A stretch of DNA of 64,000 bases, taken from NCBI GenBank assembly GCA_947179485.1, contig OX359250.1:6841661-6905660 (forward strand), written 5' to 3'. Position numbers and translations under genes: made by a program. The DNA comes from Allacma fusca (taxonomy: Eukaryota > Arthropoda > Collembola > Symphypleona > Sminthuridae). Position 1 is the first letter of the stretch; the number at the start of each line of letters is the position of its first letter. Below, piece after piece: positions 35,240 to 60,928 of the stretch. Under the pieces are notes generated by a model. That model searched no databases. It saw nothing but the letters and a program-made list of their open reading frames with translations, and was not told the DNA's origin.

Positions 35240-35452
35240 TTACTTAGGTCGAGGCCCCGTCAGATTCACACCCAAGAAATAATCCACAAGGCACTGATTG
35301 GACTTAATTCCGGAGATAAATTCGAACATGGTCAATTTCCCATCCTTGTTCCGATCCAGCCGCCAAAATATTTTATTTGCTAATTGCTCTGCCACGTCTT
35401 CAGGATCTTTCCCAGGGAATTGCTTTGCCAGGTCCATAGCTCTGTTCACCAT
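35240..35452 (-). CDS. NCS-A exon 4 (EF4, C-terminus)
   Basis: I place the acceptor at TTGAAACAG|ATGGTG, because the next upstream AG would bring in stops and alignment with NCS-B exon 4 (MVNRA.. against LVEKA..) supports it. This is 70 codons plus TAA. The splice tract is pyrimidine-poor, so the exact boundary is the least certain in this gene. Confidence 0.82.
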   Translation of the reverse strand: MVNRAMDLAKQFPGKDPEDVAEQLANKIFWRLDRNKDGKLTMFEFISGIKSNQCLVDYFLGVNLTGPRPK

Positions 35453-37300
35453 CTGTTTCAACAGCAATTTCAACATTTCATTTAATACTCACTGTAGATA
35501 TGGTAATACAATTATTGCATAACCACAATGAGTACAACTCCAGCAATAATAATATTTCCATCATCGGAACATACTTTAACAAACTCTAGCATTTCAGGCT
35601 TAGTCACGTATCCATTCTGATCCAGATCATACAATCCAAAGACATGCTCCAACTTCTGCTCTAGAGTGCCCCGTTGTTCGATGGAAACGTTTATGAGGAA
35701 TTCCCGGAAATCAATGAATCCGTCCCCATTCCTATCAATCAGTCTGAAAACTTGCTTCCCGTAACTCTGCAACTGTGGGGATATATAGAAACATCGATGA
35801 TTAAAACATACTGCCTTTGTAAATATTTTCATACATTTAATACCAATAATACTATCTGTAAAAACAGGATGAATTCCCAAAATATTATTTGTTTTGGGAC
35901 TTGTCATTACTGTAAACTACTCATGTCTGATAGCAAGTAAGTGTCTGTCCTGTAGGTACGGAATCGTGTTCTTTCCGAACGTTACAGAGGTAATTAATAG
36001 GCAGTTTACATTCATGAGAAGATAATGATCTAATCTCACAGGTGTGACTCGCACGACTCAGACCTTCCCGTATGCTCAATCAGTAGATATGTACATACAT
36101 ATACATATCTATAAGCTCAAAAATTTCCGCACCGGAAGTGCCAAGTTAAACCTGACCTGTCAAACACACCCACCTCAATTGTATGTAAACAACGCCGTAG
36201 CCCTTCCCACGCTTTTCACGTCCATTTGGAACGGAGACACCAGTTTACAGGAGTACGACGGGCAGGGAGAAGAGAATTACATAAAGAAACTAATTTACGT
36301 CGATCTTGTTTGGGTTTCCAAACCAAAAATATTTTGGAGCATGTACATAGAGGTTCTTCAAGAATGTGAACTAAATTTCAAAGTAATTCTTCGAATTGGG
36401 AATGGTCATGAATGATATATTTTGGTGGGGACTAAGAAAAAGTCTTACATCACTCCTGCTGTGTAATCAGCCCTTTTTAAAAAGAGATACGATACATGGT
36501 GGGATGACTGATTTGTAAATAAACATGTCCTTCTGTATACAGTCACATTGTATTTACATTTTATCAAAGCCCCCTTCCATATATATATACATTCGTATTC
36601 AGACATATAGTGTTAAGACAATGCGAGTGAAGCGTCAGTAACACTTGTGGGTAGTTCAATAACCAAATGGGTTATTTCATTCAACATTGTTCCATGACTG
36701 AAACCCACTCCTGTACGCATTCTCAACTCTCCGGAAATAGTATCCGGTGATTACGCGTGTCCTCGTAAATCTGCCAAAAAATTCTCTTGAAAGGTTACAA
36801 AGGCTACTACTTGCTTTCATACAACAGGGATTTTTTTCAACCTGGGAATTAATGACAGTAATCAGACATTTAATGTGTAGCAATTTGAGGGCACAGAACA
36901 AGTAATTGGGATAATGATTTAATGATACAGATGAAACAGAAGTAGATTTGAAAAAGGACGCATACCTCTACAGAATCAATAGATGATTTTTTCTTATTAT
37001 TAAAAAACAGGTCTTTCCAAACATTCAGGAATTGGTCAATGTTCATCTGACCGTCAGGAACTTCCTTAATGAAGGCTTTGTACCATTCTTGGATCTCCTG
37101 ATCTGAAAAATATTCAAGGATATAAAAATATTATTTGTATCATGATAATCCCATGAAATTAAATTCTTATGAGGTTTTGTAAGGCCAAGGCAATGCTGAA
37201 TGATATTGTTACATTGACTCAAAATATTACCCGAAAAATATGTGACGTCTTGCAAGCTAGCAATAGTTTTTGTTGACAACCTACTCTTTCCTCCACCCAT
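35240..37300 (-). CDS. NCS-A: divergent neuronal calcium sensor-family EF-hand protein, 205 aa
   Basis: Four minus-strand exons (37231-37300, 36966-37102, 35575-35772, 35240-35452) join in frame, with introns of 128, 1193 and 122 nt. The N-terminus MGGGKSRL fits N-myristoylation. The hallmark motif is DQEIQEWYKAF (from residue 24). The EF1 loop is degenerate and has VPDG in place of the family CPxG. EF2 (82-93, DRNGDGFIDFRE), EF3 (118-129, DLDQNGYVTKPE) and EF4 (168-179, DRNKDGKLTMFE) keep the calcium-coordinating positions. A lysine-rich insert (NNKKKSSIDSVE) ends exon 2. The start is the only ATG giving an MG N-terminus in phase with the first donor. Family members act as calcium-myristoyl switches on membranes, channels or cyclases; the partner here is unknown. 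It is more divergent than neurocalcin, frequenin, hippocalcin or VILIP, so I give no orthologue. Its tail (LGVNLTGPRPK) differs from the array's other members. Confidence 0.93.
35575..35772 (-). CDS. NCS-A exon 3 (EF2 and EF3)
   Basis: The acceptor is ATCCCCACAG and the donor AAA|GTATGT. The exon is 198 nt (66 codons), the same length as NCS-B exon 3 and three codons longer than NCS-C and NCS-D. Both EF loops look calcium-competent. Confidence 0.93.
36966..37102 (-). CDS. NCS-A exon 2 (EF1, degenerate)
   Basis: The acceptor is TATTTTTCAG and the donor GAG|GTATGC. The exon has 137 nt and includes WYKAF, VPDGQM and a Lys/Asn/Ser-rich extension of about six residues relative to NCS-C and NCS-D. 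Confidence 0.9.
37231..37300 (-). CDS. NCS-A exon 1 (myristoylation site)
   Basis: Seventy nt: 23 codons plus one base. It encodes MGGGKSRLSTK and then a short helix to TYFS. The donor is TCGG|GTAATA, phase 1. The length is identical to NCS-C exon 1. Confidence 0.9.
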
Positions 37301-60000: not shown

Positions 60001-60928
60001 TTGCATGTAGGCTCCGGCACTTAATTCTGGACAAGTTGGACAGGTTAAAGTATTTTTGACAAATAGAAGGTAATTTAGTCAAGAATAATTCCAGTGACTG
60101 ACAAAGTATTTCAAGTTTTCTTTTCTAACAATCAACTCTAATGAATCTCTTCCGTCTGCTGGTTCGTTTCTTCTCAACTTCCCAAAAATAAAACCCACTT
60201 GTTCCTTTTCTCTTGACTCAAACTTAAGTTCAAGTTCTACTATACACTTACTATTTGCACTTACACAACACACACACACACACACACATGTACCTATGAA
60301 CAGGTATGTATATTCTCAAAAACCAACAATAATATCCTCAAAGGATCCCATACACTACAGACTAACTAAGACAGCACGTGCACCGAGGTCTCTCACTCCA
60401 TCGAGAGTGTACGCAATGGTTATCTACTATATCTCCTTGTATATCTACTTATCTCTATGCTCCCTCCAAATTAATTATATATGAGGAAAAAAACCTTGGA
60501 ACGAAACCCATTTTCTAAAAACCTCTTGTACGGCACTACAAAAACAGACGTAAATAGATACGTATCTAATTATATATCTATACGTAGATAGTAGTAGTCC
60601 CAGGATTTCCACGGAAATACAGTTCGCATGTATAAATAAAGAACAAACAGTGATTTTCTCAGTACGAAATCCGTTCTGGCCAGAGGCGATAAAATTGGAG
60701 GAGGAAATTTACAAGGCTGACAACATCAAAAAATAAGGAAATAGTATGTAGCTGTTGTGACAACTACCCCCTGTAAAAAAAAAACCCAGTAAGCATAAAA
60801 TGAACTTACCTTGGAAGCATCGCCATACGGGAAAAAGTTTCCATAGATTTTCTTAAATTCTTCCACAGTCAGACATCCACTAGGACAGTCTTTCAAGAAA
60901 CCCTTGTACCACTCCTGGATCTCTTCAT
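53883..60928 (-). CDS. Nca: NCS-D: neurocalcin orthologue, exons 2-4 (first exon outside the window)
   Basis: Three exons (60810-60928, 56182-56370, 53883-54077) join in phase, with introns of 4439 and 2104 nt. They give 166 residues after the split Asp codon; a complete neurocalcin is about 190. The sequence is almost textbook neurocalcin: [17 protein letters not shown] in the degenerate EF1, [36 protein letters not shown] in EF2, [14 protein letters not shown] in EF3, [24 protein letters not shown] in EF4, and [16 protein letters not shown] at the end. All three calcium loops are canonical. Neurocalcin is a neuronal cytosolic sensor that binds membranes through a calcium-myristoyl switch and is reported to regulate guanylyl cyclases and the cytoskeleton. 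The exon with the MGKQNSKL-type start is not found up to 64000, so intron 1 exceeds 3 kb. It is the most conserved member of the array and probably the ancestral type. Confidence 0.96.
54078..56181 (-). other. Neurocalcin intron 3
   Basis: A GT-AG intron of 2104 nt, AT-rich, with repeated ACATATATGTACATA-like motifs near 55030 and 55140. No exon or RNA gene is seen. Confidence 0.85.
56182..56370 (-). CDS. Nca: Neurocalcin exon 3 (EF2 and EF3)
   Basis: The acceptor is GTCGGCTGACAG|TTTGCA and the donor TCC|GTAAGT. The exon is 63 codons with both EF loops intact. Confidence 0.97.
57403..57433. repeat. (CT)n microsatellite
   Basis: Pure CT run of about 15 units within neurocalcin intron 2; GA on the transcribed-sense minus strand. 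Confidence 0.96.
57925..57950. repeat. (GT)n microsatellite
   Basis: GT run with one TTT and one GCG interruption, in neurocalcin intron 2. Confidence 0.9.
58652..58704. repeat. (GA)n microsatellite
   Basis: A GA run of about 50 nt, followed within 10 bp by AGGTATTCAAACCCC, a B-box-like string. Confidence 0.96.
59799..59862. repeat. (ATGT)n tetranucleotide repeat
   Basis: Blocks of ATGT interrupted by ACTATG, CTATG and GAACG, an imperfect tetranucleotide microsatellite. Confidence 0.88.
60269..60288. repeat. (CA)n microsatellite
   Basis: Short CA run of about 10 units in neurocalcin intron 2. Confidence 0.92.
60810..60928 (-). CDS. Nca: Neurocalcin exon 2 (EF1, CPSG)
   Basis: The acceptor is GCGTATGTACAG|ATGAAG and the donor AAG|GTAAGT. 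The exon has 119 nt; its first two bases complete a split Asp codon. CPSG in EF1 is the usual NCS disabling signature. Confidence 0.96.

Follow-up and report, generated by a model that had tools for sequence, protein, structure and literature searches.

How did several neuronal calcium sensor (NCS) genes come to stand head to tail on one strand of a springtail chromosome, and how do they relate to neurocalcin? The window that raised this question is a stretch of 64,000 nt (C9:6841661-6905660, C9 being contig OX359250.1) in a searched genome of 392,743,791 bases and 91 contigs. The preliminary description had placed the DNA in a crustacean; the animal is the springtail Allacma fusca. In the available part of its genome paper, the published assembly has six chromosomes (PMC10427803), and the cluster-bearing contig matches sex chromosome X2. 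Our answer is that the cluster is real and old, and that it most likely grew when a neurocalcin-type gene was duplicated in tandem, within a family that is itself known.

Gene models of neurocalcin (Nca) and of paralogues A, B and C were rebuilt from the DNA, giving 16 exons and 12 introns; all 12 introns are GT-AG, and there are no internal stops. All four genes lie on the minus strand, and the span noted earlier, 35240..60928, runs from the stop codon of C to exon 2 of Nca. Exons 2 to 4 of Nca are at 60928-60810, 56370-56182 and 54077-53883; exon 1 is outside the window, at C9:6907102-6907033 (window-equivalent 65442-65373), which puts the start codon 1,442 bases beyond the window end. Paralogue A (198 aa) occupies 45440-45371, 44609-44491, 44121-43933 and 43705-43487; B (219 aa) occupies 39827-39725, 39633-39494, 39377-39180 and 39027-38809; and C (205 aa) occupies 37300-37231, 37102-36966, 35772-35575 and 35452-35240. 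The four intact genes thus form the head-to-tail array first described, but the count was too low. A recoverin-like NCS gene comes next upstream of Nca, also on the minus strand (C9:6980729-6980619, 6966435-6966292, 6959708-6959580 and 6955796-6955611), so that the array holds at least five NCS genes on one strand in about 104 kb, transcribed in the order CG7646-like gene, Nca, A, B, C. A search of 294 kb around and including the window revealed no sixth NCS gene.

The fifth gene encodes AFRMYDV and, after splicing, QAIYDML, both of which are also encoded by CG7646 qPCR primers printed in the accessible portion of an eLife 2019 paper (PMC6415939). From these short stretches only, we infer that it is CG7646-like. 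If this assignment is right, the CG7646/Nca pair is older than the split between springtails and flies. Drosophila CG7646 and Nca share 5′ elements, according to the same portion of that paper (PMC6415939), which would make the pair the older core of the cluster.

Rfam and tRNA scans of the window gave no matches, and Pfam gave none over the cut-off for 12 ORFs in its first 35 kb. On the plus strand, what appears to be an internal exon (28567-28741) follows TTTTTTCAG, precedes GTAAGT and encodes ESGWDNPFRPDGDLSKEADQIVELIKEGKPI, without a Pfam match; it probably belongs to the gene that follows C downstream and is encoded on the opposite strand. AG/GA dinucleotide repeats are numerous in the window (e.g., 6879-6958, 13992-14079 and 61746-61824).

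The proteins carry the family hallmarks that the preliminary description had named. The EIxEWY motif is present in all four, as EEIQEWY, EEIKEWY, DEIYEWY and QEIQEWY, and EF1 is degenerate in all four, with scores of 1 to 4 of 6. The description of EF2-EF4 loops also stands, at six of six loop positions, except that EF2 of B has five (Gly6 is replaced by Gln). In phmmer searches of the PDB, Nca (E 6e-100), A (2e-76) and C (3e-42) had HPCAL1 as their top match, whereas B matched neurocalcin delta best (1e-32), and class-B NCS chains ranked first for all four, ahead of calcineurin B and calaxin; NCBIfam gave three matches to A, each under its cut-off. The N-myristoylation motif MGxxxS/T fits Nca, A and C. 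B begins instead with MGQCVC, which retains Gly2 and has Cys at positions 4 and 6, followed by the basic stretch RRRHKLRK. In C, His replaces the Trp of the EKLRW stretch before EF3, a Trp found in Nca, A, B, the CG7646-like protein and two NCS proteins encoded elsewhere in the genome, D and E. The class-B hallmark CPxG in EF1 is replaced in B (AVPCG) and in C (EVPDG), and its Cys is absent from B, C and E.

The four proteins are strongly diverged, with identities of 33-62% among them. A is 62% identical to Nca; its identity is 59-62% with class B and no more than 46% with the other NCS subfamilies compared; human HPCAL1 and springtail Nca are 88% identical. The description of A, B and C as fast evolving is borne out by branch lengths of about 0.56, 1.27 and 0.83, plus 0.37 common to B and C, compared with 0.06 for Nca. 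Nca is thus nearly frozen, next to neighbours on branches about nine times longer or more, and the locus offers a natural comparison between a sensor held almost unchanged and several adjacent versions of it that have been set free. Third-position differences are 0.61-0.69 across the six pairs of Nca, A, B and C; since this is close to saturation, the duplications are old. DNA similarity among the four array units gave no sign of recent duplication, alignment being confined to exon 3 of Nca and A and a single 20-base match between B and A.

This divergence bears on whether the array might be an assembly artefact made of duplicated haplotypes. Copies at these protein identities are far past haplotype differences, and the units are largely unalignable as DNA; moreover, the available text of the genome paper indicates that the sequenced animal was male and that X2 is single-copy in males (PMC10427803). 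Nothing was found in favor of an artefact, and we give it almost no credence. Decay or lack of expression of A, B and C strikes us as very improbable as well. In its favor, neither AATAAA nor ATTAAA occurs within 800 bases past the stop of A, but the frames are open, the introns are GT-AG and the calcium loops are nearly intact. Codon position 2 is the least changed in all six pairs (0.18-0.41), and the proteins are constrained. When the Nca coding sequence was left to drift without constraint to a third-position divergence of 0.40, 0.50 or 0.55 (300 copies each), none of the 300 copies at any of the three levels was free of stops, the mean being 7.6-8.3, and so the open frames of A, B and C are not due to chance.

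What, then, ties the copies to neurocalcin? Three introns are common in position and phase to six genes, Nca, A, B, C, D and E: in Nca numbering, the first interrupts codon 24 (phase 1), and the second and third follow codons 63 and 126 (both phase 0). B and C thus have the complete Nca-type structure. Exon lengths are 70/119/189/195 in Nca, 70/119/189/219 in A, 103/140/198/219 in B and 70/137/198/213 in C, so that B and C have a longer exon 2 (140 and 137 versus 119 bases) and nine more bases in exon 3 (198 versus 189). In genes of other subfamilies, the first intron is absent from both that are readable there (CG7646-like and one KChIP-like) and the second from all three (CG7646-like, one KChIP-like and frequenin); the third is found in one of four, the CG7646-like gene, and not in two KChIP-like genes or frequenin. 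The other-subfamily genes read therefore share at most one of the three Nca-type introns, a marker drawn from this genome, in which frequenin and one KChIP-like gene were partly read.

The common intron positions and phases, together with gene order and orientation, favor local tandem duplication of an Nca-type gene. The explanation that we prefer, and consider fairly probable, is an old cluster on X2 in which an Nca-type gene gave rise in tandem to A and to the common forerunner of B and C; these copies may have arisen before the arthropod-vertebrate split, and the B/C forerunner would have duplicated later to give B and C. This history is what we infer from introns, order, orientation and the length changes of B and C, all of which are read directly from the DNA.

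The protein trees do not back this explanation. In a maximum-likelihood tree of 18 sequences, with springtail Nca as the sole arthropod Nca, A falls outside the group of Nca and the vertebrate class-B proteins (80.3/69), and the branch joining A with class B has support of 77.2/64. B and C lie outside class B, near frequenin and KChIP with weak support, and are sisters (91.8/78; 83.6/74 and 93.9/78 in further trees). In AU tests, 2 of the 16 alternatives in the first set were rejected, namely those joining A to frequenin (p 0.016) or to KChIP (p 0.001); A with recoverin, GCAP or the CG7646-like gene was not, nor was A with Nca (p 0.52) or A, B and C as a single clade (p-AU 0.24). None of the placements of B and C with GCAP, recoverin (p-AU 0.52), frequenin, KChIP or the CG7646-like gene was rejected. 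A clade of A, B, C and Nca was 11.3 log units worse, without rejection (p 0.09), and A to E within class B was 12 log units worse (p 0.068 and 0.055 in two tests). An origin of A to E from springtail Nca alone was rejected (25.5 log units worse, p-AU 0.018), implying either that some Nca-type genes had already separated when arthropods and vertebrates diverged or that long branches mislead.

These results lower our confidence in tandem duplication and raise the standing of a rival, in which B and C, perhaps with E, are a separate ancient NCS subfamily beside Nca and A alone is a neurocalcin-type duplicate. A clade of B, C and E is as likely as the best tree (p-AU 0.81), and the joining of B and C with recoverin noted above is likewise tolerated; grouping B and C with Nca, vertebrate class B left out, costs 11.9 log units, though it is not rejected (p-AU 0.094). 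The missing EF1 Cys in B, C and E points the same way, as do identities to Nca of a mere 38% for B and 42% for C. Against this, B, C and E have all three Nca introns, B and C lie beside A and Nca and run in the same direction, and their top PDB matches are class-B proteins. We regard such an ancient subfamily as somewhat unlikely. Short, diverged NCS proteins alone decide subfamily weakly, and the intron structure is a second line of evidence that conflicts with them; the conflict could be due to long-branch attraction. Of the local expansion proposed in the preliminary description, then, the derivation from a neurocalcin-type gene is favored by introns, order and orientation, while the expected grouping of A, B and C with neurocalcin is compatible with the AU tests but is not recovered in the tree, where A stays outside class B and B and C are unplaced. 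The lineage-specific origin suggested there gains no support from the position of A in the tree, from the rejected origin of A to E in springtail Nca alone or from the older core that the fly CG7646/Nca pair would imply.

NCS genes also lie outside the array. The Nca query gave 47 matches in the genome at E up to 0.01, and 14 stretches were read. The first six held D (on C10), E (on C12), frequenin (read in part, from two stretches of C12) and two KChIP-like genes (on C1 and C5); the next five held a third KChIP-like gene (on C5, partial) and four that were not NCS-like; and three more look Duox-like and calaxin-like, judging by their sequence. The cluster thus holds five of no fewer than 11 NCS genes in the genome. 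The three KChIP-like genes are at L034, L035 and L040, of which the latter two were partly read. D (C10:59777001-59780200, L033) and E (C12:12626301-12629300, L036) are dispersed and strongly diverged; because they carry the intron pattern of neurocalcin but lie elsewhere, the expansion was not confined to the array. Among the 16 matches to the C query, those read outside the cluster were D, E, the KChIP-like genes, two Duox-like frames and the calaxin-like frames. The last of these, presumably calaxin-like by their sequence, are three EF-hand frames on one strand in less than 5 kb (C9:26545801-26550600, L046), another small EF-hand tandem on the chromosome of the cluster. On C1, at 15.49 and 15.44 Mb (L041 and L042), two near-identical frames lie about 50 kb apart. 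Each begins with a hydrophobic segment and has a stretch rich in cysteines and two EF-hand-like loops; the pair may come from the recent duplication of a gene for a secreted EF-hand protein. Beyond this genome, none of 151 pattern matches in viral contigs was confirmed as an NCS relative, and 48 in prokaryote contigs included one weak EF-hand match, in Rhodoferax (38% over residues 144-183).

The copies probably work as other NCS proteins do. In recoverin and class-B proteins, a calcium-myristoyl switch operates: when EF2-EF4 bind calcium, a hydrophobic face opens and the myristate at the N-terminus is released. By analogy with known NCS proteins, each copy here would have a dead EF1, calcium-binding EF2-EF4 and a myristoylated N-terminal glycine, and calcium would expose the hydrophobic face and the lipid for binding to membrane and target. 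A, which keeps the motif, the loops and most neurocalcin features, is probably a second neurocalcin. B is probably more permanently anchored in the membrane, given Cys at positions 4 and 6 and the basic stretch, features that we take to resemble those of doubly lipidated, basic membrane anchors. The target range of C has probably shifted, as the His for Trp before EF3 would suggest. It is conceivable, though in our view improbable, that the CG7646-Nca pair forms an ancient regulatory block of arthropods from which new calcium sensors under shared control keep arising. In the springtail, it would have yielded a graded set on a sex chromosome present in a single copy in males, with A as a second neurocalcin, B permanently anchored in the membrane and C altered in its target face.

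The case is modest but clean, in a known family, and it provides a test ground for the origin of new calcium sensors. In the open-licence PubMed Central literature, we found no paper on neurocalcin in Collembola, and no comparable NCS array was described in the titles and abstract starts found there on NCS evolution, clusters and tandem copies. Four known systems invite comparison. In Drosophila, the portion of the eLife paper at hand names two genes, Nca and CG7646 (PMC6415939), whereas the springtail has three further Nca-type genes after Nca. Next to vertebrate neurocalcin delta, HPCAL1 and hippocalcin (class B), springtail Nca is 86-88% and A 59-61% identical, and both resemble class B in a dead EF1 and canonical EF2-EF4; B and C differ, at 36-40% identity: residues are inserted between their EF1 and EF2, and they lack the EF1 Cys. 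Drosophila frq1 and frq2, as the accessible part of their description has it, are also an arthropod tandem NCS duplication, of another subfamily, with two copies that are 95% identical and 11.6 kb apart (PMC2837045); the springtail copies, in contrast, have strongly diverged. Vertebrate GCAP1 and GCAP2, as far as the available text describes them, likewise stem from a local NCS duplication and then specialized (PMC6170504), but belong to another subfamily, B and C being 23-34% identical to the two bovine GCAPs.
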